Origin: Cyanobium sp. ATX 6A2
Lineage (GTDB): Bacteria; Cyanobacteriota; Cyanobacteriia; PCC-6307; Cyanobiaceae
Assembly (NCBI RefSeq): GCF_024346355.1
Contig: NZ_JAGQCU010000001.1
Coordinates: 372,001 to 436,000 of the forward strand
DNA: 64,000 nucleotides
Reading direction: 5' to 3'
Positions 3,371 through 62,918 of this stretch are shown here, piece after piece (position 1 is the first letter of the stretch; every line of letters starts with the position of its first letter). The translations under genes and the position numbers were made by a program. Below the pieces are notes generated by a model that made no database searches, was not told where the DNA came from, and saw nothing but the letters and a program-made list of their open reading frames with translations.

Positions 3371-3763
3371 TCAGCCTGCCTGCAACAGCGCCACGCCCTT
3401 GGCCCCGGAGAACCGCCGGTCAAACGTGAGCACCGGCAAGGCAGCGGCGCTGGTGGCGCGGGCCAGGATCAGCTGGTCGGCCAGGTCGCCACCCTGACGG
3501 AACTGATCCAGGGAATCGATCACCGCGTCGATGTCATCGACCACCACACCACGGGTGCGCACCAGACGCTCCAGCAGCCCATGGCGGGTGGCGCGATCCA
3601 GGTCGTAGCCCCGCAGCACCCAGGCCACCTCGGCAAGCACCACATCGGGGAGGTAGACGCCGCTGGCGATCGCATCGAGGAAGGCCTTCTCTGCGACTGG
3701 TGTCTGCAGCGGATCGTCGCCGATCAGCAGCCGCACCACCACGTTGGTGTCAAGGGTCGTCAC
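3371..3763 (-). CDS. vapC: PIN-domain toxin paired with an AbrB-type antitoxin
   Basis: 130 residues with the PIN pattern: TTLDTNVVVRLL near the N-terminus (first Asp), VLAEVAWVLRGY (Glu), and GGDLADQLILARA followed by VLTFDRRFSGA (two late Asp positions). The start is taken as GTG 3763 just inside the end of the antitoxin gene; the frame is open further upstream, but the DTN motif then lies too far in. Probably an Mg-dependent RNase restrained by the AbrB-fold partner encoded immediately upstream and overlapping it by 14 nt. Confidence 0.85.
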   Translation of the reverse strand: MTTLDTNVVVRLLIGDDPLQTPVAEKAFLDAIASGVYLPDVVLAEVAWVLRGYDLDRATRHGLLERLVRTRGVVVDDIDAVIDSLDQFRQGGDLADQLILARATSAAALPVLTFDRRFSGAKGVALLQAG

Positions 3764-3995
3764 GACCGGCGGCAGCGGCGATTGCACGGTCCATGTCTTC
3801 AACGCTCATCACCCGCTCCACCCGAGGCCGGTGGCGGAAGAGGTCCTCCGGTTCGTACTTCGAGGGCACCAGCACCAGGCGGCCATGGCGATCGATCGAG
3901 GCCTGCAACCTGGCCCCGGGGGCCAGGCCGAGGGCGTCGCGCAGCTGCCGAGGGATCGTCAGCTGGCCTTTGGAGGTGAGCGTCACGGTGGCCAT
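3750..3995 (-). CDS. AbrB/MazE-like antitoxin
   Basis: 81 residues. TLTSKGQLTIPRQLRDALGL is the canonical swapped-hairpin AbrB/SpoVT DNA-binding signature, followed by GARLQASIDRHGRLVLVP and an acidic tail rich in Glu and Arg that would contact the toxin. First gene of a minus-strand TA operon, overlapping the PIN toxin. Expected to autorepress its promoter near 4000-4020. The toxin-antitoxin role rests on the pairing. Confidence 0.85.
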   Translation of the reverse strand: MATVTLTSKGQLTIPRQLRDALGLAPGARLQASIDRHGRLVLVPSKYEPEDLFRHRPRVERVMSVEDMDRAIAAAAGRDDP

Positions 3996-5690: not shown

Positions 5691-6305
5691 CTACGGCGGC
5701 TCGCTGGGCGGCGGCTCCAGCGGCGCCAGCGCCACCTGCTCCTGGCGGGTGGTCTGGCCGTCGGCCAGCTGGCGCGTGAGCTCCAGGCTGAGCAGCCCCG
5801 AAGGGCTGGGCGTCACCGTGAAGCCGGCCTCTCCCGGCAGCGCGTCGATCAGCACCCGCGACGCCGCGGTGCCGTCGCTCCATTCGCCGTCGAGCCCGTA
5901 GGCCGGGCCGCAGCGCATCAGCACGTCCCCGCGCCAGATCGAGGATGGCGCCGCGCCGCGGCTGAACAGCACCGCCACGCTCTGGCCGCTGCGGTTGCGG
6001 CCCTGGAGCTGCAGCACAAACGCCCGTCCCGCCAGGCTGCAGCCGCCCGGCAAGGGCGCCTCGCCCGACTGAAACGTCACCGCCTCGGCCCGCTGCAGCT
6101 CGCCGCGCACCAGCTCCAGGGCCCGCTCGCCCGCCTGCCGCTCCCGCAGCCAGCGGCCCAGGCGGCCCACCTGGCGCAGGTCGCCCACCAGCAACTGCAG
6201 CACCATGGCGCTCACCAGGCCCGAGAGCGCCAGCGTCACCAGCAGCTCCACCAGCGTGAAGCCGTTTTCCTGCCGGGCCCCACGGCAACACATCCGCGTC
6301 ATCAC
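5691..6305 (-). CDS. minor prepilin, PilW-like
   Basis: 204 residues with a type IV prepilin signal: a basic leader (MTRMCCRGARQEN), cleavage site G|FTLVELL with Glu at +5, then a 20-residue hydrophobic helix (VTLALSGLVSAMVLQLLVG) and a globular C-terminal domain. Last gene of a four-gene operon (PilX-, PilV-, GspH/FimT-, PilW-like) in which each start overlaps the previous stop. Minor pilins prime assembly or sit at the tip of type IV pili, which in cyanobacteria serve motility and DNA uptake. Confidence 0.8.
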   Translation of the reverse strand: MMTRMCCRGARQENGFTLVELLVTLALSGLVSAMVLQLLVGDLRQVGRLGRWLRERQAGERALELVRGELQRAEAVTFQSGEAPLPGGCSLAGRAFVLQLQGRNRSGQSVAVLFSRGAAPSSIWRGDVLMRCGPAYGLDGEWSDGTAASRVLIDALPGEAGFTVTPSPSGLLSLELTRQLADGQTTRQEQVALAPLEPPPSEPP

Positions 6306-6805
6306 GCCCTCTCGTCGCGCACGCAGTTGGCGGCGCTCACGCCACCACTGCCCTCATCGCGGCCCAGCCGCAGCACCCCCAGCGGCAGCGCCATCACCAG
6401 GCAGCGACGCAGCTCGGTGCCGGCACTGGACACCACCACGGTGCCGCCGTCGATCAGCAGCCCGTTGGCCGTGAAGCGCAGCTCCAGCGGCAGGTTGTGG
6501 CTGATCTCCAACCGGCCGCCCGCCACCTCGGCCGCCTCCAGCAATCCGCCGGAGCCGTCCACCGAGAGGCTGCGGCTGCGGCCGTGGCGGAGGGCCAGAT
6601 CGCGCTCGCGCTCGATCACCATGGCCAGCTCCCGGGCCGCCACCTCCACCCGCTGGGTGGCCAACAGGCCCCAGCCCATCCAGCCGCCGATCGCCAGCAG
6701 CAGCCCCAGCACCACCACGGCCACCAGCAGCTCTTGCAGGGTGAACCCCTCAGCGGCGCGGTGGGCAGTTCGGGCGCCCGCGCGTTCACCCCGGCGCCAG
6801 CTCAC
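6302..6805 (-). CDS. minor prepilin, GspH/FimT-like
   Basis: 167 residues. Prepilin motif G|FTLQELLVAVVVLGLLLAI after a 20-residue basic leader, then a GspH-like domain with ATQRVEVAARELAMVIERERDLALRHGR, typical of FimT/GspH pseudopilins (the region after the helix aligns with the FimT family). Third gene of the operon; its ATG overlaps the preceding stop by 4 nt. Confidence 0.8.
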   Translation of the reverse strand: MSWRRGERAGARTAHRAAEGFTLQELLVAVVVLGLLLAIGGWMGWGLLATQRVEVAARELAMVIERERDLALRHGRSRSLSVDGSGGLLEAAEVAGGRLEISHNLPLELRFTANGLLIDGGTVVVSSAGTELRRCLVMALPLGVLRLGRDEGSGGVSAANCVRDERA

Positions 6806-7215
6806 GAGTCACCTCCCGCCGGAGCGCAGAGGCCATACACCGCCAGATCGAACACCCGCGTGCGGCTGTGGTCGTCGCCGATCCGCGCCGTGGCGGTGAG
6901 GGTCTGGGCGGCGGTGTCGCCCGTGAGGGTGAGGGCAACCTCCGGATCGCCCTCGGCATCGCTTTGGGCGCCGCTTTGAACGCCGTGCTCAACACACCCG
7001 TCATCGGGCACCGCAACGGAGCCATCGCGCCGCCCGGCCGCCAGGGCCTGCAGCCGCGCCTGCACCGCCAGCAGCTGTTCGTCGGCCTGGCGCTGCTGGC
7101 TCAGCAGCTGGCCGGCGTCGTGACTGGAGTGGGCGGTGCGGGCCCAGATCCCCAGCGAGCCGGTGAGCGAGCCCAGCACGATGCTGCCGGCCACCAGCAC
7201 TTCCACCAGGTTCAT
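6802..7215 (-). CDS. minor pilin, PilV-like, lacking a leader peptide
   Basis: 137 residues starting MNLVEVLVAGSIVLGSL. This looks like the mature N-terminus of a PilV-type pilin with Glu at position 5, but there is no leader or G|F cleavage site before it: the ATG overlaps the stop of the upstream gene, and the upstream in-frame codons read SAGGGL. Either a noncanonical upstream start adds a short leader or the protein is inserted unprocessed. The rest has a central helix rich in Gln and Ala, then a small beta domain ending with a Cys. Confidence 0.65.
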   Translation of the reverse strand: MNLVEVLVAGSIVLGSLTGSLGIWARTAHSSHDAGQLLSQQRQADEQLLAVQARLQALAAGRRDGSVAVPDDGCVEHGVQSGAQSDAEGDPEVALTLTGDTAAQTLTATARIGDDHSRTRVFDLAVYGLCAPAGGDS

Positions 7216-7724
7216 GAGTCCGCCCCCCGCAGACCCCGCTCCTCGATGCCCACCAGCTGCGGGGGCTCCGCGATCCAGTGCACCGCGAAGGCAGCCCGCG
7301 GCGCCGGATCGCGGCCCGTGAGCTCCAGCACCAGCTCGCCACTGCCCTGGTCGGGGTTCGCCTGCTGGGAGCCGCCGCCGGGCGCATAGGCCACCAGCCG
7401 GTAGCCCTCGCCGGCCTCGATCCCAGGGCAGGGATGGGCGTCGGGCCAGGCGCTATGGGGCAACACCAGCAAGTCCGGGCACTGGCGCTGCAAGCGCCCC
7501 GCCAGCACCTGGGCGGCGCTCATCAGCTCATCTTCCGCCTGGCGGCGCTGGCGCTGCACCGCCGCCTGCAAGCGGCTCTGCAACGCCAGGGTGAGCAACA
7601 ACAGGCTGCTGAGCATCAACAACAGCGCCACCAGCATCGACATCGGCAGCAGGAATCCCTCCTGCCCTGGCGACAACGAACGACGGGCCGCACCAGCCCT
7701 CCGCAACATGAAAGAGCCAGGCAT
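7212..7724 (-). CDS. PilX-like pilus assembly protein
   Basis: 170 residues. After a basic leader (LRRAGAARRSLSPGQE) comes G|FLLPMSMLVALLLMLSSLLLLTLAL, a prepilin-like hydrophobic segment without the usual Glu5, as is common in PilX/GspK-type proteins. First gene of the minor-pilin operon; 101 bp of promoter space separates it from the divergent phd-yoeB operon. The same position in the second pilin operon (18.2-20.1 kb) is filled by a much larger PilX-like protein. Confidence 0.7.
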   Translation of the reverse strand: MPGSFMLRRAGAARRSLSPGQEGFLLPMSMLVALLLMLSSLLLLTLALQSRLQAAVQRQRRQAEDELMSAAQVLAGRLQRQCPDLLVLPHSAWPDAHPCPGIEAGEGYRLVAYAPGGGSQQANPDQGSGELVLELTGRDPAPRAAFAVHWIAEPPQLVGIEERGLRGADS

Positions 7725-11046: not shown

Positions 11047-11280
11047 ATGGCCCAGGTGCTCATCCGCCAACTGGACGACCAGGTGGTGGCCGCGCTGCGG
11101 GCCCGCGCCCGCGCCCGTGGCGTCTCCCTGGAGCAGAGCCTGCGCGATCTGCTCACCGCCGCCGCTCAGGACGGCGACTCGCTTCGGGTCGACCTGGCGC
11201 GCCTGCGGGCCACCACACCGCCCGCCGGCCGCAGCCTCGATGTGGCGGCCCTGATCCGCGACGACCGCGATGGCCGCTGA
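11047..11280 (+). CDS. FitA/VapB-type antitoxin
   Basis: 77 residues from ATG 11047, with a good ribosome binding site. AQVLIRQLDDQVVAALRARARARGVSLEQSLRDLLTAAA is the FitA-like ribbon-helix-helix pattern; the tail (GRSLDVAALIRDDRDGR) is the toxin-binding acidic segment. The gene overlaps the PIN toxin by 11 nt. It lies between the two Uma2 modules. Confidence 0.88.
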   Translation: MAQVLIRQLDDQVVAALRARARARGVSLEQSLRDLLTAAAQDGDSLRVDLARLRATTPPAGRSLDVAALIRDDRDGR

Positions 11281-11743
11281 ACCGGCCGTCTGGGTGGTGG
11301 ATGCCTCGGTGGCCTTCGGCTGGTTTGCCGCGGTGCCGGGATCGGAGCAGGCCGCCCAGCTGCTGGATGCCGGGCCTGCCGCTCTGCTGCTGGCACCGGA
11401 TCTGGTGCTGGTGGAACTGCTCAACACGGCCTGGAAAAGCCTGCGGCTGGGGGCGATCACCCCCGAGCAGTTCGAGGTGCTGGCCCACCGCGCCGCCGAA
11501 CCCTTTCACCAGTTGGTTCCCGCCGCGACGCTGCTGGCCCGGGCCAGCCACTGGTGCCGGGAACTCGATCACCCGGCTTCCGACTGCCTCTATGTGGCCC
11601 TGGCCGAGCGGGACCACGCCACCTTGATCACGGCCGATCAGCGCCTGCTGCGCAAGCTGAAGGACCAACGGCCGGGGCTCCCCGCCGCCATGGATCTGCT
11701 CAGACGTCCCAGATCGGGCCCAGATCCAGCACCAGGCCGCTGA
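11270..11743 (+). CDS. VapC/FitB-type PIN-domain toxin
   Basis: 157 residues. VWVVDASVAFGWFAAVPGSE has the first Asp of a PIN domain (VVDASV variant), PDLVLVELLNTAWK the conserved Glu, and HPASDCLYVALAERD ... LITADQRLL the remaining acidic residues. Partner of the antitoxin just upstream. Its 3' end overlaps the converging Uma2 gene by 44 nt; the last ~15 residues (RPRSGPDPAPGR) are probably not conserved, so an earlier natural stop may have been lost. Confidence 0.87.
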   Translation: MAAEPAVWVVDASVAFGWFAAVPGSEQAAQLLDAGPAALLLAPDLVLVELLNTAWKSLRLGAITPEQFEVLAHRAAEPFHQLVPAATLLARASHWCRELDHPASDCLYVALAERDHATLITADQRLLRKLKDQRPGLPAAMDLLRRPRSGPDPAPGR

Positions 11744-15893: not shown

Positions 15894-16154
15894 ATGAGCA
15901 CCGAAGCCACCACCACCGATCCCAGCGCCCTCACGATCGAAAACGTGGAGCGCACGCTGGATGAGCTGCGGCCTTACCTGATGGCCGACGGCGGCAATGT
16001 GGAAGTGGTGGAGATCGAAGGGCCGATCGTGAAGGTGCGGCTGCAGGGCGCCTGCGGCAGCTGCCCGAGCAGCACGATGACACTCAAGATGGGCATCGAG
16101 CGCAAGCTGCGCGAGGCGATTCCGGAGATTGATGAGGTTGTGCAGGTGCTCTGA
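15894..16154 (+). CDS. nfu: NfuA-like Fe-S cluster scaffold (NifU C-terminal domain)
   Basis: 86 residues. [30 protein letters not shown] and [18 protein letters not shown], with the cluster-ligating CGSC pair, define the NifU C-terminal (Nfu) domain. In cyanobacteria this small Nfu protein carries and delivers [4Fe-4S] clusters, chiefly for photosystem I. Full length for the family. The AT-richer pilin cluster begins immediately after its stop. Confidence 0.95.
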
Positions 16155-16215
16155 TTTCCATTCTGATGCCTGCAGTCCACCTGACGGGCAAACCGAGGAC
16201 TTAATCGCCTCAAGT

Positions 16216-16881
16216 CTAATCGCAATCTCCAATTAGCCCTGGGTTGCTTGGATTTTCTGGATTGCAGACAAAAACACTTTTAGCATGTGCAACCACACAC
16301 GCTCCAGACTCCTCCCCAAAATTACTACCAGGGAAATTCACCTGATAAACAACTTGACGACTGCTGGTTGACTGAGTGCAACCTGCCGGATCTAGAACGA
16401 GTTGCGCATTTCGCAGCACAACTCCAGTTGCATGGAGCGCACCATCACTTCCCACAGCATGCTCAAGAACTCCATTACGAAACACTCGAGGACCACATCT
16501 CTCAATATTGCCATTGCGATTAAAGTACTCGATTCCGCTGCGATTTTCATCAGAAGCATAAATACCAGCGGGCTTTGGTACATACATTGTAAAACCTTGT
16601 GTTCCAGAAGCCGTGCATTCAGGCGCAGTTTGTCCTAGCTCAATTTCATCAGATTCCGACGCCTCAATCTGAATGAGATAATTTAATCTACTTAGATTCT
16701 CTCTCACTCTCTGAGTTGCTTCAAGGCGCCTGCCCTCAAGAAGTTGTCCAATCATCACTTGGGCGGTGCCAGCAGCCAATAGTGCAGCAATAATTCCAGC
16801 CACCAATAACTCTGGGAGCGTGAATCCATGTTGGCAACCGATTCCCCAAGGCCCATGGGATTTAAGTGTTTTACGTTTCAT
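16216..16881 (-). CDS. minor prepilin, PilW-like (AT-rich cluster)
   Basis: 221 residues with leader MKRKTLKSHGPWGIGCQH, site G|FTLPELLVAGIIAALLAAG (Glu at +5) and a C-terminal domain with several Cys (ECTAS, ERCGPR, AGCTQS, GACVVAH, FVCNPE, GDCD) that likely form disulfides. Fourth gene of the second minor-pilin operon. Codon use is visibly AT-richer than in the flanking core genes, suggesting a different origin. Confidence 0.8.
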   Translation of the reverse strand: MKRKTLKSHGPWGIGCQHGFTLPELLVAGIIAALLAAGTAQVMIGQLLEGRRLEATQRVRENLSRLNYLIQIEASESDEIELGQTAPECTASGTQGFTMYVPKPAGIYASDENRSGIEYFNRNGNIERCGPRVFRNGVLEHAVGSDGALHATGVVLRNAQLVLDPAGCTQSTSSRQVVYQVNFPGSNFGEESGACVVAHAKSVFVCNPENPSNPGLIGDCD

Positions 16882-16941: not shown

Positions 16942-17559
16942 CTAGATTGTTTGCCATTCGGCCGAGGCGTCGCTACAAGAATCACTATTGCCTCCAGATG
17001 GCCTGCCAATGTCTACAGATCCGAGCACAGGTGATATGCGAACACATCGCGAAGGTCCCCCACCACTTAAAGTAATTTTTAGTTTGAAGCCAGCGCCCGG
17101 AGTCCCGCCAGCCGTAGTGCTACCTGCAGTTTGTGTCCACAGGCCTCTAGGAGTGAAATAGATGGGAGACGTGCCTTGCTCAATCGAAAGAGCCACAGAA
17201 TCGCCCTGAATGTCAGGTATTCTAATTTCTCCTCCAGGCAAGGTAGTATTTGTGCAATCTGTAGATGCCACAGCTTGACCAGCCTGACTTGAACTTTGGA
17301 CGAATGTAAGCCGACAACCGCCAATGTCACGACTATTAGAATTCGAATCGACATTAGCAGCTACATTTCTTACGTTTTCAATGCCACCAGCAACCTCCAA
17401 TGCGACAGACTGAACTCTCGCTCGTTGTACAAGAAAGAAGAATGCGGGAATTCCAACCGCCGCCGTGACACCAAGAATAACAACAATAACGAGCAGCTCG
17501 GGCAAGCTAAAGCCCTTGGCATGAGCAGAAAAGTGTTCTGAAATTCGCTTCATTTTCAT
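16942..17559 (-). CDS. minor prepilin, GspH/FimT-like (AT-rich cluster)
   Basis: 205 residues from ATG 17559 (a second ATG at 17553 is also possible). Leader MKMKRISEHFSAHAK, then G|FSLPELLVIVVILGVTAAVGIPAFFFL with Glu at +5, and a beta-rich C-terminal region containing four Cys. Same operon position as the GspH-like gene at 6302-6805. The frame extends upstream into the preceding gene, but that extension is a shadow. Confidence 0.8.
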   Translation of the reverse strand: MKMKRISEHFSAHAKGFSLPELLVIVVILGVTAAVGIPAFFFLVQRARVQSVALEVAGGIENVRNVAANVDSNSNSRDIGGCRLTFVQSSSQAGQAVASTDCTNTTLPGGEIRIPDIQGDSVALSIEQGTSPIYFTPRGLWTQTAGSTTAGGTPGAGFKLKITLSGGGPSRCVRISPVLGSVDIGRPSGGNSDSCSDASAEWQTI

Positions 17560-17569
17560 ATCTTTATAG

Positions 17570-18211
17570 CTAAGGGCACCATGCAGTGACGAGCGGAGAC
17601 AGACGCATACGCCGAAGCTCGTCCCCGTCGGAGGAATCAACCCATAGTATTTCTACAAGATGATTTCCCGCATCGGAACCATCCACACGTGTAGCATTTT
17701 GTCTAGTAATCCCTGCGCCTGGTTGGTCTAATGAATCAATCGCTGACCTAAAGCCAAAAGTTATGTGACTGGTGGGCGTAGACGACCCACAGGATGTTTC
17801 AAAAGCGGCAACATCAGAAGCGTTAGCGGGGTCAGGGAAGTAATAAAATGATGAGTTGGGGGCAACAACTAGGCCGGACAATGTATCTGTGCAGGCCGTA
17901 TTTGGATTTGCTGGAATTGACCCCGACCCGCTCCCAGGAACACAAGCTGTGTAAATCTCAGACAGCCGGCTAATCTCAGAAATATCACGATCAATCTCTC
18001 GGTTTTGCTCTACAAACAGGCCTGTTCCACGGATCGACCGCGTAGCCAAATTGAATGCAGTGATAGAACCCAAAGTGGCTACAACTAAAATCACCGCTGA
18101 AACAATCACTTCAAGTAGGGTAAAGCCCGAGCAGCAAGTCGTACCTTGCCTGGAGCAAATAACATCCAGGGAGTTTCGTATAGAAGAATTCACAAGCTTA
18201 TGCGTTTCCAT
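17570..18211 (-). CDS. minor prepilin, PilV-like (AT-rich cluster)
   Basis: 213 residues. After a 28-residue leader comes G|FTLLEVIVSAVILVVATLGS with Glu at +5, a full type IV prepilin signal, unlike its counterpart at 6802-7215. The globular part contains several Cys (TACVPG, TACTDT, ETSCGSS) and a region with Ser/Asn-rich loops. Spacing to the next gene is only 10 bp. Confidence 0.8.
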   Translation of the reverse strand: METHKLVNSSIRNSLDVICSRQGTTCCSGFTLLEVIVSAVILVVATLGSITAFNLATRSIRGTGLFVEQNREIDRDISEISRLSEIYTACVPGSGSGSIPANPNTACTDTLSGLVVAPNSSFYYFPDPANASDVAAFETSCGSSTPTSHITFGFRSAIDSLDQPGAGITRQNATRVDGSDAGNHLVEILWVDSSDGDELRRMRLSPLVTAWCP

Positions 18212-18223
18212 AGTCTCTAATCC

Positions 18224-20113
18224 CTAGAAGCCCGAAGCTTGAGTAAAGCTACGCGCAATAAAATCGACCAACGGGATTCCACCACCTGGCCCATCGCCAT
18301 CAGCACCAGAAGAAAAGGTGAAGATTTTTGCATTACCATTAATGTATAGCTCATCGACCCAAAGTCGACCCATAAAGTTAGGAACAGCGCCTCCGCCTCC
18401 TCTTAACTCAACGCTAGCGAAGGGTGCGTAGAGATTAAATGCGACACCTGCTGCCGTACCATTTAAATCAAAACTACCGGTCCCATTGGCATAGACATTT
18501 AAAAGCCTGCGAACATCATATTCAATTCCTTCACAGCCTGTCAGAGTACAATCTTCTTTGAAGATGTCCCAGGTTACGGTGGTTCCACATGAGGCAGTTC
18601 CACTTGGTACGGCTGAGAGGTCAGTTCTGCAGTGGACACGTGATATCTCCCTGGACCCTGCGCCCCCGAGATAAAGACCTGTATAGGCTGTGTTGTACAT
18701 CAGCATATTGATCTGAGCAGCAGTCGTATCGAATCTCAGCGTACTGCCTGGATTGCTCAAGACAATATTCTGAACTTGGCAATTGTATGTATGATATGGC
18801 CTGGGGGGAGAAGCCGTTAGGTCCAAATCTCTGCCAGAAACCTGGTAGCAAGGATCCGGAGGTGGAGTTATTGCTGTGGCCGGATCGACACCATCAAGAC
18901 GCCTACAGTTAGTATATGTTGAGCCACTAACTTCGCAGATTCTAATGCCAGCAGGATCCGTGCCATTATTGTAGTAGGTGATGTGCCGGGTTGCATTATT
19001 GGGAATCGTAATTGTGGGATACTGCGGGCTAGGTGTTCCTGCAGGATTGGAATAAGTGGGGAAGGTAAAGTCAAAGATCGCTGGCACGAAACTGATGCCG
19101 GTGGTGGCAGGATTCCCCAGTGCCACGTTGCCATCGGCACAATCTTGAGCACCTGCATCAGGGGCTGATGAACTTCCTTCCCAGCACAAGAGTTGATTAA
19201 CTTGTTGGCAACCACTCCCTAAAGTTCCATCAGCATTAAGCGTGCAGTTTTCATCATAGATTTCTTTTTGATTTTTGCTGCCGCATATTCCCGCATCAGC
19301 ATCCTTACATGCATTATTGGGATTAGTGCCACCATTCATCCCGACAATGACGCCGTCATTGTCACCAATAGCAATCTCACAGGCTCGGCTGTCTCGGCCC
19401 CAGTTCACTCCCCCAATAGTATTTCTTCCAAAGGATCGTTTGCAACATTTTGGAACAACTTCAAATTCTCTGGATATGCGCGAAGTACTGCTCCTATTTC
19501 CAGGTCCAATAAATTGGCCAACTACGGTGACTCTGATCAGTGGCCGATTGACTCCAGCTTGAACGGTTGAAATATAAGAGACGTCTGAAGGCGTGTAAGG
19601 GGTTCTGTCTTCCTTAAGAAATTCGACTTCCTCGACCACATAGCTCCTGTTCGCATCAATAGTCACAACAGATCCCGATCGCAATCGTGAAATGTCTACC
19701 GAGCTTGGAGTACTGGGCCCTGCAGATATCTTGCTGCCATCGCTGTTATAGCCAGTGCAGGGATTAACCACACTCGGGTTAGTCGTGCTCCAAACAGAAC
19801 TCGAATCATCGCCAGCAATAAGCATATATCGATTGGCTTCTTTGTTTAAGACTGATGCAAATTCAGCTATTCCTGCTTCAGCAACATCTCTCGCCTGGCG
19901 GTTCTGCGTTTGGAACGCCTGGCCAATGAAGCCCAATTGCCCCCTTGAGGCCAGCGCCGCCACCCCCAGCAGCAGCACAAAGGAGGCGATCAGCGCCACC
20001 GCCAGCGCGTAGCCCCGCTCCGCCAGGCTGCCGCCGCCCCGTTGGCGGGACCGCAGCATCGTCAGCCTCAGCAGCAGGGTCAGCGCCCCCGGGCCCTTGG
20101 GTGGTTGCGTCAT
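18224..20113 (-). CDS. large PilX-like protein with AT-rich passenger domain
   Basis: 629 residues from ATG 20113. The N-terminus (basic leader, then RGYALAVALIASFVLLLGVAAL) is PilX/GspK-like and written in the GC-rich dialect of the core genome. From about residue 60-75 (around 19,930) the sequence becomes AT-rich and encodes a long Cys- and Asn-rich extracellular domain (CKDADAGICG, ENCTLNADG, QDCADGN), ending with a Gly-rich beta-like region (GTGSFDLNG, VDELYINGNAKIF). The design suggests a tip adhesin on a pilin anchor. First gene of the operon. Confidence 0.72.
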   Translation of the reverse strand: MTQPPKGPGALTLLLRLTMLRSRQRGGGSLAERGYALAVALIASFVLLLGVAALASRGQLGFIGQAFQTQNRQARDVAEAGIAEFASVLNKEANRYMLIAGDDSSSVWSTTNPSVVNPCTGYNSDGSKISAGPSTPSSVDISRLRSGSVVTIDANRSYVVEEVEFLKEDRTPYTPSDVSYISTVQAGVNRPLIRVTVVGQFIGPGNRSSTSRISREFEVVPKCCKRSFGRNTIGGVNWGRDSRACEIAIGDNDGVIVGMNGGTNPNNACKDADAGICGSKNQKEIYDENCTLNADGTLGSGCQQVNQLLCWEGSSSAPDAGAQDCADGNVALGNPATTGISFVPAIFDFTFPTYSNPAGTPSPQYPTITIPNNATRHITYYNNGTDPAGIRICEVSGSTYTNCRRLDGVDPATAITPPPDPCYQVSGRDLDLTASPPRPYHTYNCQVQNIVLSNPGSTLRFDTTAAQINMLMYNTAYTGLYLGGAGSREISRVHCRTDLSAVPSGTASCGTTVTWDIFKEDCTLTGCEGIEYDVRRLLNVYANGTGSFDLNGTAAGVAFNLYAPFASVELRGGGGAVPNFMGRLWVDELYINGNAKIFTFSSGADGDGPGGGIPLVDFIARSFTQASGF

Positions 20114-20259
20114 GGCGTATCCAGGCCTTCTATCCATTGTTTCAAGCTACCGCCAACGACTGGCCGGAGCACAAACGGCAAGGGTTCATCACCAACCTCT
20201 CAGCTCAGGCTCCCGCAGGGCCCGGCTCCTACGCTGCGGGCCGTCGTTCCCGCCCCGCC

Positions 20260-21546
20260 GTGCTCGATCAGCGCCTGCTGCGCCAACACCCCGAGCAGAT
20301 CGTGGTTCAGCTCGCCCGCCGCGGCATCGAGGTTGACCTCACTGGTTTGCAGCTGATCGCCCGCCAGGAGCGCGACCTCGAGCAGCGCCGCAGCGAGCTC
20401 CAGGCCGAGGGCAACCGCGTGGGCAAGCAGGTGGGCGAACTGATCCGCGGCGGTGCCGGCCCCTCCGGCCCCGAGGTGGCCGCGCTGCGCGAGCAGGGCA
20501 ACCGCATCAAGCAGCAGGTGGCGGTGCTGGAGGAGGAGGAGAAGATCCTGGAGGAGAAGCTGCGCGAGCAGCTGCTCACCTTCCCAAACCTGCCCGCCCC
20601 CGAGGTGCCCGAGGGCGCCAGCGAGGCCGAGAACGTGGAGGTGAAGCGCTGGGGCAGCCCCCGCAGCGAAGCCGGCCTCCAGGAGCACTGGCAGATCGGC
20701 GAGCGGCTGGGCCTGTGGGAAACCGAGCGTTCGGTGCGCATCGCCCAGAGCCGCTTCATCACCCTGCTCGGCGCCGGCGCCCGCCTCGAGCGCGCCCTGA
20801 TCAGCTTCATGCTCGATCAGCACACGGGGCGCGGCTACACCGAGGTGCTGCCGCCGATTCTGGTGAACACCGCCAGCCTCACCGCCTCCGGCCAGCTGCC
20901 CAAGTTCGCCGAGGAGAGCTTCCGCTGCTCAGGCGACGACCTCTGGCTCACCCCCACCGCCGAGGTGCCGCTCACCTCCCTCCACCGCGACGAGGTGCTC
21001 CCCGCCGAGCAGCTGCCCCTGCGCTACTGCGCCTACACCCCCTGCTTCCGCCGCGAGGCCGGCTCCTACGGCCGCGACACCCGCGGCCTGATCCGCCTGC
21101 ACCAGTTCAACAAGGTGGAGCTCTACTGGTTCACCCGGCCTGAGGAGTCCGCCGCCGCCCACGAGCAGCTCACCCGCCACGCCGAAGCCATCCTCGAAAC
21201 CCTCGAGCTGCCCTACCGCCGCATCGAGCTCTGCACCGGCGATCTGGGCTTCTCCGCCGCGCGCACCTTTGATCTGGAGGTGTGGCTCCCCGGCGCCGGC
21301 GCCTACCGCGAAATCTCCAGCTGCTCGGTGTGCGGCGACTTCCAGGCCCGCCGCGCCGCCATCCGCTTCAAGGACGCCGACACCAAGGGCACCCAGCTCG
21401 CCCACACCCTCAACGGCTCCGGCCTGGCCGTGGGCCGCACCATGGCCGCCCTGCTCGAAAACGGCCAGCAGTCCGACGGCTCCGTGCAGCTGCCCGCAGC
21501 GCTGGTGCCCTACTTCGGCGGGGACAGGATCGGCCCGGCGGGGTGA
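20260..21546 (+). CDS. serS: seryl-tRNA synthetase
   Basis: 428 residues from GTG 20260, giving VLDQRLLRQHPEQIVVQLARRG, where SerS proteins normally begin with MLD-like sequence; the longer open frame upstream overlaps the pilin gene and is rejected. A long coiled-coil arm (RQERDLEQRRSELQAEGNRV ... ILEEKLREQL) that grips tRNA-Ser is followed by class II motif 2 (FRREAGSYGRDTRGLIRLHQF) and motif 3 (NGSGLAVGRTMAALLENGQ). Charges tRNA-Ser. In marine Synechococcus serS is, from memory, close to rseP-rpsN-pnp; here 10.7 kb of accessory DNA intervenes. Confidence 0.96.
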   Translation: MLDQRLLRQHPEQIVVQLARRGIEVDLTGLQLIARQERDLEQRRSELQAEGNRVGKQVGELIRGGAGPSGPEVAALREQGNRIKQQVAVLEEEEKILEEKLREQLLTFPNLPAPEVPEGASEAENVEVKRWGSPRSEAGLQEHWQIGERLGLWETERSVRIAQSRFITLLGAGARLERALISFMLDQHTGRGYTEVLPPILVNTASLTASGQLPKFAEESFRCSGDDLWLTPTAEVPLTSLHRDEVLPAEQLPLRYCAYTPCFRREAGSYGRDTRGLIRLHQFNKVELYWFTRPEESAAAHEQLTRHAEAILETLELPYRRIELCTGDLGFSAARTFDLEVWLPGAGAYREISSCSVCGDFQARRAAIRFKDADTKGTQLAHTLNGSGLAVGRTMAALLENGQQSDGSVQLPAALVPYFGGDRIGPAG

Positions 21547-21624
21547 GGGGCGTTGCGGTTTGGCAATCGCAACAGCGGCACTAACGTTGGGAAGGCCACC
21601 GGATCCCCTACCTGGCTCCCGAAC

Positions 21625-21858
21625 ATGACCGGCCAGCCCAGCCCCCTGATCACCTGCACGCCAGGAGTGCGCAGCGGCAAGGCATGCGTGGCAGGAACGC
21701 GGATCGCGGTCTACGACGTTCTCGAATATCTGGCCAGTGGCATGAGCCAAGACGACCTCCTGGCCGATTTCCCCGACCTGCGCACCGAACACATCCAGGC
21801 CGTACTGCGCTACGCGGCTGAGCGCGAAAAGCGGATCAGTGGCCTTACGGTGGCCTGA
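21625..21858 (+). CDS. DUF433 antitoxin-like protein
   Basis: 77 residues. ITCTPGVRSGKACVAGTRIAVYDVLEYLASGMSQDDLLADFPDL is the DUF433 winged-helix pattern (GKPCIRGTRI-like). DUF433 proteins are usually paired with a DUF5615 PIN-like protein, as here with the next gene 21 bp downstream; the pair is regarded as a type II TA module. The ATG at 21625 is chosen over an upstream ATG that lies just after serS. Confidence 0.88.
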   Translation: MTGQPSPLITCTPGVRSGKACVAGTRIAVYDVLEYLASGMSQDDLLADFPDLRTEHIQAVLRYAAEREKRISGLTVA

Positions 21859-21879
21859 GCCGCCCAGCTTCCTGATCAG

Positions 21880-22227
21880 GTGAAGGCAGGACGCTTGCTG
21901 TTCGATGAAAATCTCAGCCCCAGGCTGCCTACAGCACTATCCGATACATTTCCTGGTAGCACTCACGTCCGGGTCGTGGGGCTGAAAGGTGCTTCCGATC
22001 AGACGATCTGGGAGTTCGCCCTCAAGGCAGGATTCACGATCGTCACCAAAGATGACGATTTCAAAAGCCTGAGCCTGCTGCGTGGCGCTCCTCCCAAGGT
22101 GGTGTGGCTCTTGGTGGGCAACACGAGCACAGCAGAGATCCAGCAGTGTCTTCTCAGGTATTTCTCCACCATCGAGTCCTTCATTGCTGAACCGACCACC
22201 TCCCTGCTGATCCTGCGCAAGAGTTGA
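21880..22227 (+). CDS. DUF5615 PIN-like protein (partner of DUF433)
   Basis: 115 residues from GTG 21880. LLFDENLSPRLPTALSD has the metal-binding DEN motif, and DQTIWEFALKAGFTIVTKDDDF the TKDxDF motif of the DUF5615/Mut7-C-like PIN fold. Probably an RNase toxin held in check by the DUF433 protein. Full length for the family. Confidence 0.87.
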   Translation: MKAGRLLFDENLSPRLPTALSDTFPGSTHVRVVGLKGASDQTIWEFALKAGFTIVTKDDDFKSLSLLRGAPPKVVWLLVGNTSTAEIQQCLLRYFSTIESFIAEPTTSLLILRKS

Positions 22228-40381: not shown

Positions 40382-40455
40382 GCTCCCTTAGCTCAGCTGG
40401 ATAGAGCAGCCGCCTTCTAAGCGGCCGGTCGTTGGTTCAAGTCCAACAGGGGGCG
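40382..40455 (+). tRNA. tRNA-Arg (anticodon TCT)
   Basis: Cloverleaf: acceptor arm GCTCCCT / AGGGGGC (one G-U), D arm with GCTCAGCTGGATAGAGC, anticodon arm CCGC-CTTCTAA-GCGG giving anticodon TCT (reads AGA), and T arm GTTGG-TTCAAGT-CCAAC. The CCA end is not encoded. The region just downstream contains gene remnants, as is common at tRNA integration sites. Confidence 0.95.
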
Positions 40456-59393: not shown

Positions 59394-59810
59394 TCATGGG
59401 GCTGAGGCCCGAAACCTTGGCATCCCGGCAAAGACCAGCAGAAGAACGAGGTAGACCGAGCCCGACACCTTGTCTCGGCTGGCGATGAACTCCGCGGGGG
59501 GCAACCCTTGCACCACGGTGGCCAGTGCCAATTCCGCCACAATCATCAGGCCCAAGGCCAGCACGCCTGCGAACAAGGACCGGCCCGGAGAGCCAACCTC
59601 TGGGAATTGGCGAAGGATGACTCCCGCGGCGACGTAGATGACCATCGTCATGATGGGCATCTCTGCCAGTTCCGCCCAGCGCCTGCCGATGCGTGGCACG
59701 AGAAACGGAACCCTGATCATGCCAAGAGTAAATCCCGCGCCCAGCACCATGGCGAAGTAAGCGAGGGCGGCTTGAATGGTCTTTACCAAGGCAATCCAGG
59801 ACAGGTACAT
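59394..59810 (-). CDS. hypothetical membrane protein
   Basis: 138 residues with four hydrophobic segments (ALVKTIQAALAYFAMVLGAGF, PIMTMVIYVAAGVILRQF, SLFAGVLALGLMIVAELAL, VYLVLLLVFAGM). Possibly a small inner-membrane protein of unknown role. Codon use is intermediate between the GC-rich cluster and the AT-richer insert. It lies 22 bp upstream of hoxW and may be co-transcribed. Confidence 0.65.
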   Translation of the reverse strand: MYLSWIALVKTIQAALAYFAMVLGAGFTLGMIRVPFLVPRIGRRWAELAEMPIMTMVIYVAAGVILRQFPEVGSPGRSLFAGVLALGLMIVAELALATVVQGLPPAEFIASRDKVSGSVYLVLLLVFAGMPRFRASAP

Positions 59811-60031
59811 TGCTGACGAGCTCTTTCGTGAGACCCAATGCTTTTAACCAGCCGCTGACGAAGGAGGTCGGCTGCATTTGATTGCTAGCCGCCAAACCTC
59901 GGTCATCCAATCTCAAAAGACGCTGCACCAAAGATACGATAGAATGGCATATCAGGAAACTCTCCTGTATACATTCGGGCAGTTTCAAATGAAACTAGCA
60001 TTTTATATTTCTCCGCCAATGCAACAGCAGC
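59811..60031. other. AT-richer stretch after the GNAT gene
   Basis: No gene is visible. On the minus strand an imperfect structure at about 59,840-59,900 (GGCTAGC ... CAGCCG ... CGGCTG ... GTTAAAA) could be a decayed second attC-like site, since it begins with a TTTGGCGGCTA word also present at 60,784. Weak evidence. Confidence 0.25.
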
Positions 60032-60754
60032 TTAATTGACTACCGGTGTATCTAGGAAAATCAGTTCTGACAAACGTGTTGTGGCTTTTAAGGCTAGAAA
60101 AAGGGATTCGGCTAATTCCGGATTGTCCGCAAAGAGTGGCCCAATCTTGCAACCCTTGCGGCATTTGCGTATGACACCATAGCCAGCCAGCTTGCCATTC
60201 TTCGTGATTCCCAGCGCATGGCATTCAGGCTGGCTGATCCATGCTTTGGTAAACTGAGACCTGTTTGCAGGAAAGAATTGTTGATCGTATGCATCAATGG
60301 TTTCGAAAGGTAATGTGGAAAGGCCTACAATCCCTGAGCTTTTGAGAGGGCTGCCGCCACCAGTCCCTTGGTAGCGGATGTTGCGATAGGCCAGCTTAAA
60401 ACCAGACCTTTTGTAGTTTTCCTGCTGAGCCACGACACCATCAAGACCTATATTCAGGCCTTTAAGATATTTAAGCCCTGCATTCCAGATTTGAATCCCA
60501 TATCCTTTGCCACGGTATTCAGGCTTGACAATGTAGAATCCGATAAAGCCAAATGAGTTACCGTATTTGATTGCGGAGATTGTGGCAATGGGTTCGCTAC
60601 CAAGAAGACCAATAAGAAAACCATTTGGATCGGCTTGACAGTAACAGTCAGCATCGCGGATGCCTGGATTCCAGCCCTCCTTTGCGGCCCATTCAATCGC
60701 AATGTCTATTTCTTTTCGGTTCATTGTCTTGATTGTATAGTTTTTGTTTTGCAT
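60032..60754 (-). CDS. GNAT-family N-acetyltransferase (putative cassette gene)
   Basis: 240 residues. GLLGSEPIATISAIKYG and GFIGFYIVKPEYRGKGYGIQIWNAGLKYL, with the acetyl-CoA-binding R/Q-x-x-G-x-G/A loop (RGKGYG), define a GNAT fold; the C-terminal part (LAGYGVIRKCRKGCKIGPLFADN) resembles the second GNAT-like domain of the YitH/DUF1248 group. Clearly AT-richer than the neighbours, pointing to foreign origin. Acetyl acceptor unknown. It begins 35 bp after the attC-like site, as expected for a cassette gene on this strand. Confidence 0.82.
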   Translation of the reverse strand: MQNKNYTIKTMNRKEIDIAIEWAAKEGWNPGIRDADCYCQADPNGFLIGLLGSEPIATISAIKYGNSFGFIGFYIVKPEYRGKGYGIQIWNAGLKYLKGLNIGLDGVVAQQENYKRSGFKLAYRNIRYQGTGGGSPLKSSGIVGLSTLPFETIDAYDQQFFPANRSQFTKAWISQPECHALGITKNGKLAGYGVIRKCRKGCKIGPLFADNPELAESLFLALKATTRLSELIFLDTPVVN

Positions 60755-60788
60755 TAAATTTCTCCTCAGAAATCTAAGGTGATTTGGC

Positions 60789-60878
60789 GGCTAACGCTCG
60801 CCATCACCTGGCTGCAAGGAGTGCTTCATGAAGAAGAGAACCTCACGGCGGCGGCTCAGGTGCATGGCGGTGTTAGCT
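60789..60878 (-). other. integron attC-like recombination site (90 nt)
   Basis: Read on the minus strand: core site AGCTAAC, spacer ACC, arm GCCATGCACCTG, 46-nt loop, arm CAGGTGATGGC, spacer GAGC, core site GTTAGCC. The core sites are complementary over six bases (GCTAAC/GTTAGC), the inner arms pair fully except for one extra G in the first arm, and the spacers do not pair. This matches attC anatomy (R'', L'', L', R' with an extra-helical base). The stop codon of the upstream gene lies inside the first core site, as often in cassettes. Confidence 0.72.
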
Positions 60879-61211
60879 GACCAGTGCCTTTGCCTGGTGC
60901 GCTGGAGCACCACAAAGCAGGCCTTCCACACTTAAATCCTCATCAACATCTGGCCAGTGGATTCCATAGCCGGACCCAGCAATCTCCCAGTTTTCACGCT
61001 CCTGGGAAGTTGCATGCAGAAGCCTCGGGAACCAAGCCAACGGCACCGAGATAGATCGACCATCAGCTAGGTCGACGATCAGCCTGTCCTCTGTCAAGGC
61101 AACGTCAGTGACCTGCTCTCCAGGGTTAGCCATATGAACATGGGGAGGCTCGTTTGGCTCGTGACTGTAGAAGTAGACCCTGTAAGGACCGCTTCTGAGG
61201 ATTGTCGGCAT
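60873..61211 (-). CDS. DUF4160-DUF2442 chimera (putative cassette gene)
   Basis: 112 residues from ATG 61211. The first ~30 residues (MPTILRSGPYRVYFYSHEPNEPPHVH) are the N-terminal half of a DUF4160 protein; the rest (VTDVALTEDRLIVDLADGRSISVPLAWFPRLLHATSQERENW ... GIHWPDVDEDLSVEGLL) is a complete DUF2442 domain. These two families normally occur as neighbouring genes and are thought to be TA-like; here they are fused with the second half of DUF4160 lost. The TAA stop lies in the attC core site. Confidence 0.82.
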   Translation of the reverse strand: MPTILRSGPYRVYFYSHEPNEPPHVHMANPGEQVTDVALTEDRLIVDLADGRSISVPLAWFPRLLHATSQERENWEIAGSGYGIHWPDVDEDLSVEGLLCGAPAHQAKALVS

Positions 61212-61260
61212 CCGAAATCGCACTATCACACCGACGATACCAACCACGGCCTTCCTGTGC

Positions 61261-61270
61261 AGCTAACGCC
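61261..61270 (-). other. attC-like half-site at the cassette boundary
   Basis: GGCGTTAGCT on the minus strand resembles the right-hand core site of attC elements and lies 50 bp before the DUF4160-DUF2442 start, where the preceding attC or attI would end. The matching left half was not found upstream, so only a half-site is claimed. Confidence 0.4.
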
Positions 61271-61278
61271 AATTGAAC

Positions 61279-61425
61279 GGACCTGTATAAATCCCCCACC
61301 CATCTCTCTTCAGCTGCATAAGAGAGCAAAAACCTCAGAGCAACATGTCCAAAGCCCTTCTGGCGCAACGCTTCCTTGGTGGGCGCTTCAAAATCCAAGC
61401 TACTTATGCGGACCCGTATAAAACC
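61279..61425. repeat. direct repeat flanking 115 bp next to hoxH
   Basis: GGACCTGTATAAATCC (61279-61294) and GGACCCGTATAAAACC (61410-61425) differ at two of 16 bases. Both lie between the DUF4160-DUF2442 gene and hoxH. They may be duplicated promoter elements (TTATAC on the minus strand) or the edges of a lost insertion. The sequence between has a minus-strand open frame of uncertain coding value. Confidence 0.45.
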
Positions 61426-61457
61426 TACGTGCACACACAACACCTCAGCCCTGCCGC

Positions 61458-62918
61458 TCAGCCTCGCAGCCGCTCCGCCACCAACCCACCCGCAGCATCG
61501 CGCAACTCGATGTGCAGCGGCATCTGGCCGGCGGCGTGGGTGCTGCAGCTCAGGCAGGGGTCGAAACAGCGGATGCCCGCCTCCACCCGGTTCAGCAGGG
61601 GCTCGGGGATCTCGGCACCATCGGCCACCGGCTCGGTGATGAACTCCCGGGCGATCTGGGCCACGGTGCGGTTCATCGCCAGGTTGTTCTGACCGGTGGC
61701 GATGATCAGGTTCACCCGGGTGATCAGGCCGTCGTCGTCCACGCAGTAGTGGTGAAACAGGGTGCCTCGCGGTGCCTCGCTCACCCCCACCGCCTCGTTG
61801 GCGTTGAGGTCGGCGCGGGCGCGGATGCGGTCGGTCATCAGGCTGTCGTCCACCACCAGCTGCTCGATCCCCTCCAGGCAGGCCACGATCTCCACCAGCC
61901 GGGCGTGGTGGAAGGCAAACGAGGAGGTCACGATCCGGCCACCGCTCTCCGCGGTGCCGCTGCGCTGGCGGAACTCGGCCAGCTCGGCATCGGCCCAGTC
62001 GCTGCCCATCGACTCGCACACGTTCAGCCGCGCCAGCGGCCCCACCCGGTAGATCCCCTCGGGATAGCCCAGGGGCTTGTAATAGGGAAACTTGAGATAA
62101 CTCCAGCTCTCCACCGCCTCGCCCAGGTAGCTGGCGTAGTCGTCTTCCGAGAGGTCATCGGCCACGATCCGGCCGTCGCTGTCGATGAAGCGGATCAGGC
62201 CATCGATGCACTCCCAGCGCCCGCCCGGCCCCACCAGGCCCATGAACAGCGACGGGAAATCACCGAAGGTGCTCTGCTCCCGCTGCAGCGGCCCATCCAG
62301 CAGCTGTTTGTAGAGCTGCAGGGCCGTGGCCACCGTGGCCTTCGCCTCCGGCAGGCGCTCCAGGATCCACTCCCTGGCCTCTGCGCTCAGGGGCGTGCGC
62401 ACCCCGCCGGGCACCGCCCAGGCGGAGTGGATCTTGCGGCCCCCCAGCAGTTCCAGCACCTGCTGGCCGAACTGGCGCAGGCGGATGCCGGCGCGGGCCA
62501 GATCCGGGTCGGCCGCCATCAGGCCGAACACATTGCGCCGCGCCGGATCACTCTCCCAGCCCAGCAGGAAATCAGGGCTGCTGAGGTGAAAGAACGAGAG
62601 CGCGTGGCTCTGGCAGAGCTGGGCCAGGTTGAGCAGCCGCCGCAGCTTGCGGGCCGCCGGCGGCGGCTGCACCGCCAGCAGCTTGTCGCCCGTTTTCGCC
62701 GCCGCCAGCAGGTGGCTCACCGGGCAGATGCCGCAGATGCGGGCGGTGATGCCGGCCATCTCGGTGAACGGCCGGCCCTCGCAGAAGGTTTCGAAGCCGC
62801 GATACTCCACCACGTGGAAGCGGGCATCGGCCAGCCGCCCCGCCTCATCCAGATGGAGCGTGATCTTGGCGTGACCCTCGATGCGGGTCACAGGATCGAT
62901 CGTGATCGTGCGTGTCAT
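61458..62918 (-). CDS. hoxH: bidirectional NiFe hydrogenase large subunit HoxH
   Basis: 486 residues. The N-terminal Ni ligands are in [15 protein letters not shown] (RxCGxCxxxH) and the C-terminal pair in [12 protein letters not shown] (DPCxxCxxH). The 23-25 residues after the last His are the peptide removed by HoxW. Binds the Ni-Fe(CN)2CO site that splits or makes H2. The start [21 protein letters not shown] is the family start. Last of the hox structural genes in the transcription order seen here. Confidence 0.97.

Follow-up and report, generated by a model that had tools for sequence, protein, structure and literature searches.

Replacement-type flexible genomic islands (fGIs) keep the same context and the same kind of function across strains, while the genes that they carry are only distantly related; pili are typical members of these islands and discussed phage targets (PMC3782348). 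In the Rhs C-terminal displacement of Enterobacteriaceae, a core is joined to compositionally distinct, exchangeable C-terminal parts, with recombination in the core and mostly within a clade (PMC2935791). As for type IV pili, class II pilE of N. meningitidis is a case of pilin allele exchange (PMC4023411), and the pilin groups of P. aeruginosa carry different minor-pilin sets (PMC11841053). In cyanobacteria, DNA uptake, motility and flocculation have been connected with minor pilins (PMC12288463). The locus described here, in which an AT-rich block begins inside a minor-pilin gene, appears to be a new instance, with a new seam position, of a known kind that takes in surface-structure replacement islands, rhs tip displacement and pilin allele exchange; neither locus nor seam position was found described in a literature search.

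The minor-pilin operon and its flanks

The window, that is, the whole stretch of 64,000 nucleotides that was analysed, belongs to a GC-rich cyanobacterium of the genus Cyanobium group (genome G000; its relatives are numbered G001, G002 and so on) and lies on a 475-kb contig. The features concerned are as follows.

15894..16154, plus strand: nifU-like gene (Fe-S scaffold), right flank; GC3 0.84
16125..16215: right border of the AT-rich block, from the J stop to the 3' end of nifU
16216..16881, minus strand: gene J, PilW/GspJ-like minor pilin, matching a prepilin N-terminal model; GC3 0.33
16942..17556, minus strand: gene H, GspH/FimU-like minor pilin, matching a prepilin N-terminal model; GC3 0.38
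17570..18211, minus strand: gene I, PilV/GspI-like minor pilin, matching a prepilin N-terminal model; GC3 0.42
18224..20113, minus strand: gene K, large PilX/GspK-like minor pilin of 629 aa, weak GspK N-terminal match
18224..19891, minus strand: K passenger, codons 75-629; GC3 0.41
19892..19949, minus strand: seam by the codon-usage model, codons 55-74, within the predicted alpha-1 helix 36-89
19892..20113, minus strand: K anchor, codons 1-74, leader and first part of alpha-1; GC3 about 0.9
20114..20259: serS-K intergenic region, on the putatively resident side; expected site of the operon promoter
20260..21546, plus strand: serS (seryl-tRNA synthetase), left flank; GC3 0.94

The operon runs on the minus strand from 20113 to 16216 between serS and nifU, and its gene order K-I-H-J is the one found in minor-pilin complexes. 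The closest families were GspI/PilV for I, GspG/GspH for H and GspJ for J. The best family match of K was the weak one to the GspK N-terminal family (E 0.026); the K protein gave no Pfam match, and DUF7305 was matched by some K homologues. A prepilin-type N-terminus with a long alpha-1 helix is present in I, H and J by the prepilin models and is predicted in K by the modelled helix 36-89. The start of K may also lie further upstream, at an in-frame ATG at 20137. No promoter consensus was called in the serS-K intergenic region (20114..20259), of which a large part can be aligned with G009 and G003.

In the structure model of K, the passenger would consist of the end of alpha-1, an alpha/beta head, a beta-rich C-terminal region and a conserved C-terminus (ARSF..ASGF). 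Since this model is only moderate (pLDDT 72, pTM 0.57), no claim is made on the fold. A fold search with the model against the PDB gave no match at E below 0.1, and the beta-rich extra region, as moderately modelled, had no PDB match by sequence or fold. The C-terminus (window 18227-18253, ARSFTQASGF type) is nearly invariant in the K homologues of the genus, and the rest of K is variable.

Other features near the pilin cluster were also recorded. Small ORFs resembling toxin-antitoxin or PIN-domain genes were seen by eye at 3371-3802, 11270-11743 and 21553-22227. A further pilin (L103, G000:C1:370181-370709), about 1.3 kb beyond the left edge of the window, has a glycine/aspartate-repeat tail, an intermediate GC3 of 0.56-0.57 and 61% identity to its G009 counterpart; it is possibly the major pilin.

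The composition switch inside K

The GC3 of K was 0.89 in codons 1-73 and 0.41 in codons 74-629, whereas its amino acids, given the genome's own codon usage, would predict 0.89 and 0.85, respectively. The amino-acid composition was therefore rejected as the cause of the drop past codon 74. The maximum-likelihood change point fell at codon 74 with a log-likelihood gain of 34, compared with a maximum gain of 9.7 in 1000 codon shuffles. The codon-usage model allows the seam anywhere in codons 55-74 (window 19,949-19,892), and the switch at about 19,930 proposed in the preliminary description lies inside this range. The same description held that the GC-rich N-terminal part is followed by AT-rich sequence to the end of the operon, and this was borne out: the low GC runs on through I, H and J and stops no more than about 90 nt away from the stop codon of J at 16,216.

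Compared with a 464-kb sample of the genome, the 3.7-kb block is the lowest-GC stretch of its length (minimum GC 0.477 versus a sample mean of 0.692). K has the strongest high-to-low switch among the 355 ORFs of the sample; the higher switch scores run low-to-high, and at least one of them (window 19945) belongs to an over-extended ORF. An assembly chimera was rejected because the locus lies on the 475-kb contig and the same order recurs in other assemblies. The AT-rich seam and block are thus confirmed as real. Another AT-rich patch is found at window 59501-61501, where the 1-kb GC goes down to 0.46; it adjoins hydrogenase genes, with a HoxH-like ORF (61458-62918) beside it and a GNAT-like acetyltransferase ORF (60032-60754) inside it.

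The window also carries a second set of pilin genes.

5691..7724, minus strand: second minor-pilin operon (K2 7724-7212, H2 6805-6302, J2 6305-5691); GC3 0.88-0.95

With a GC3 of about 0.9 in this operon of the same genome, AT-richness as a property of pilin genes was rejected.

Anchor, passengers and seams among relatives

We compared the locus with its relatives, sampled as one genome per species. Between G000 and the nearest genomes, G009 and G003, serS, lepA and nifU showed 91-94% nucleotide identity (93-94% for the nifU-like gene) and the K anchor 86-87%. Past the anchor, the identity was 49-50% in K and 52-58% in I, H and J. Codon sharing was then scored at positions where the amino acid is the same, with a correction for the chance agreement that codon usage predicts; since GC-rich genes agree in some codons merely by chance, raw codon identity by itself was not relied upon. 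Among the three genomes, the corrected sharing was 0.47-0.63 for serS and lepA and 0.38-0.40 for the K anchor, and it was at chance (-0.05 to 0.09) for K 91-629, I, H and J. In the second operon, the synonymous codons were retained, with a sharing of 0.43-0.83 with G009 and G003. Since synonymous codons were lost on one side of codon 74 only, faster protein evolution is inadequate as the cause. The cassette is far more diverged than its flanks, synonymous sites included, as in a replacement island. These alignments demonstrate, at the level of sequence, that the anchor and flanks are vertically inherited and that the passengers have saturated synonymous sites.

The preliminary description had predicted different passengers behind the same anchor in relatives, and these were found for G000, G009 and G003. 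It had also reasoned that relatives sharing the same composition change would mean an old or selected one. This is not what was seen: the changes in relatives lie mostly elsewhere, and K codons 75-90 have a GC3 of 0.12 in G000 versus 0.81 in G009. A 15-nt stretch inside the seam (19893-19907) is identical in G000, G009 and G003.

The borders in relatives were placed by a two-border segmentation of the low-GC block. The left seam was found at K codon 75 in G000, 84 in G009 and 75 in G003 (where the contrast is weaker), and in the middle of K at about codon 253 in G002. In G011 and G164, it preceded K, by 101 nt in the former and by 167 nt, at the start of serS, in the latter; in G001, the border was weak and late. 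Of eight other relatives, five had the right border no more than 200 nt from the J stop; the exceptions were G002, G007 and G073. The K genes of G002 and G003 are interrupted in these draft assemblies, and only the matched segments entered the alignments. In G002 (L050, about 9155-7162, minus strand), the GC-rich part of K extends to about codon 253, and the AT-rich remainder holds an in-frame stop, which may be an error, as the assembly is a draft. In G003 (L049, 8640-8760), K stands in two frames with an apparent frameshift near residue 270, which may reflect an error of the MAG or decay of the allele.

The serS-KIHJ-nifU order is common to G000, G001, G002, G003, G007, G009 and G011 and to G073 and G164, which belong to other genera, so the locus is old; in G012, the serS end of the locus is outside the sequence covered. 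At the same site, the gap between nifU and serS is 60-66 bp in G004 and G006 and about 670 bp in G005. A different pilin cluster is present on the other side of nifU in G006 (L053, 4565-9700) and G004 (L078, 1-1800), and that of G006 encodes a K-like protein about 935 aa long.

Two genomes of the same genus, G007 and G012, and G073 from another genus carry a syntenic K with a GC3 of 0.79-0.86 and without a clear switch. The corrected codon sharing of their cassette was 0.31-0.44, about equal to that of the flanks; the cassette can therefore be inherited normally, but that of the AT-rich group was not. A mild GC3 difference between anchor and passenger (mean 0.14) occurs in many relatives, 19 of 22 being at least slightly lower past the anchor, which points to a small general component.

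The tree of the flank proteins grouped G000, G003 and G009 (100/99). This group was rejected by the K-passenger data (AU p 8e-6) and by K, I, H and J combined (p 0.0013), and it was not rejected by I, H and J alone (p 0.17). The K passenger and I-H-J thus appear not to have one common history. Furthermore, the I-H-J tree united the lineage of G000, G009, G003 and G002 in one clade (100/100), so that much exchange must have taken place between members of this lineage. The sampled alleles of this lineage are mostly well below the genome GC3. The clustering of I-H-J by lineage and this low GC3 raise the possibility that the AT-richness is a feature of a pool of alleles in circulation and not of a single, distant donor of low GC.

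Origin of the cassette and comparison with known systems

Repeated allelic replacement of the minor-pilin cassette by homologous recombination is, with high probability, the best reading of the observed composition seam, vertical flanks and anchor, saturated passengers, varying seams and conflicting trees. As judged from their sequences, the relatives indicate that a surface cassette was replaced several times, with the seam at varying places. The preliminary description had proposed that recombination within the conserved N-terminal segment replaced the pilin passenger domains of K. The relatives support such a replacement, with homologous recombination as the probable process. The replaced unit does include the K passenger, but it is not limited to one gene and also takes in I, H and J.

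In such an event, the resident chromosome would retain serS, the shared upstream region, and the leader and first half of alpha-1 of K, and the incoming allele would bring the rest of K together with I, H and J. The left join would be made in frame within the alpha-1 coding part of K, whose conservation supplies the homology, and the right join at or near the J/nifU border, so that the conserved helix and this border would hold the replaced unit in register. Expression of the incoming tip proteins would then rely on the resident start, and the resident anchor would dock them into the pilus machine that the cell already has. Thus, the exposed parts would be exchanged, while the upstream region and the membrane anchor would stay. 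The cassette products probably reside in a tip complex, and escape from phage or grazers, or altered adhesion, may be what is selected. ComEC, DprA and PilB/PilT-type ATPases are present in the genome, which makes uptake by natural transformation a plausible route.

The source of the cassette was sought in several places. Searches of 400 family genomes, made with K and with J, and of 292 phylum genomes gave no close donor; the best passenger match among them was 45% (G001). Plasmids and viral contigs gave no passenger match. The host genome holds one K match only and no silent or donor copies of K; an intragenomic donor was therefore rejected, and exchange would take place from cell to cell rather than inside one genome. 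A tRNA-borne, integrase or IS island was likewise rejected, as no mobile element, tRNA or repeat pair is present at the borders: the sole tRNA of the window is at 40382, and no direct repeats beyond weak partial matches span the cassette borders.

Other histories of the block were weighed against repeated replacement. If the switch were old and shared, with the passenger and I, H and J AT-rich through function or expression, the similar switch in K of G009 and the slightly lower GC3 past the anchor in most relatives would follow. Nevertheless, the GC-rich syntenic alleles of G007, G012 and G073 refute this as the main cause, and the GC-rich second operon, the different seam codons of relatives and the synonymous saturation between the two AT-rich alleles of G000 and G009 also stand against it; we regard it as the least probable of these histories. 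The resident cassette might instead have diverged rapidly in place, by local hypermutation or strong diversifying selection and with no import. The clustering of I-H-J by host lineage and the lack of a close match in the donor searches would agree with this. However, the synonymous sites of the cassette are saturated while those of the anchor and flanks a few bases off are not, the GC3 shifts from 0.9 to 0.4, the seams vary among relatives, and the trees of the K passenger and of the flanks disagree. Divergence in place is hence scarcely more credible than an old switch.

The direction, donor and number of crossovers we infer; the seam alone would fit cassette import as well as conversion of the anchor and flank. 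In the reverse case, the AT-rich cassettes would be long-standing residents and the GC-rich serS-K anchor side would have been homogenised by recombination among close relatives. Several lineages do have AT-rich or intermediate cassettes at the same site, and the K crossover looks alike from both sides. Since serS, lepA/nifU and the distant second pilin operon are comparably and vertically diverged, the cassette is the outlier, and this reversal is given only a slim chance, if a slightly better one than divergence in place.

With repeated replacement as the preferred reading, a wider proposal can be made tentatively, although we consider it rather doubtful. In GC-rich picocyanobacteria, old pilin-tip alleles of AT-rich composition might form a pool tied to the lineage, in which they circulate by recombining through the conserved alpha-1 segment of K and are possibly imported by the pilus that they themselves encode. 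Such alleles would stay AT-rich since they are replaced, or their AT-rich state is favoured, before they can adopt the composition of the host.

The locus is thus probably a site of allelic replacement for the pilus tip in picocyanobacteria, with the crossover zone narrowed to a few codons. The second, unexchanged pilin operon is a clean internal control and points to selection on the K-I-H-J pilus alone. The locus suggests that the tip proteins behind a fixed anchor are exchangeable modules, and the alleles of relatives form a natural chimaera set for asking about binding by the large K protein.

Compared with described systems, the gene order and weak family matches resemble the GspK-I-H-J and PilX-V-FimU-W priming or tip complex operons, but K has 629 aa with a predicted beta-rich extra region. 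As in type IV pilin allele exchange, a conserved N-terminal helix is combined with variable heads and pilin alleles spread horizontally; here, however, the genes are those of the pilus tip and the host is a picocyanobacterium. Unlike in pilE/pilS gene conversion, the genome lacks silent pilS-like copies of K. A conserved core joined to an exchangeable, compositionally distinct part by homologous recombination would be shared with Rhs, an unrelated protein family, but no displaced tips lie downstream of J, where nifU directly follows, so the old cassette appears to have been replaced, not shunted. With fGIs, the locus shares the conserved flanks and position, the diverged content and, in relatives, sites that are empty or hold other content. 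Unlike in fGIs, the border here cuts a gene, so that the promoter side and the N-terminal helix of K would remain resident.
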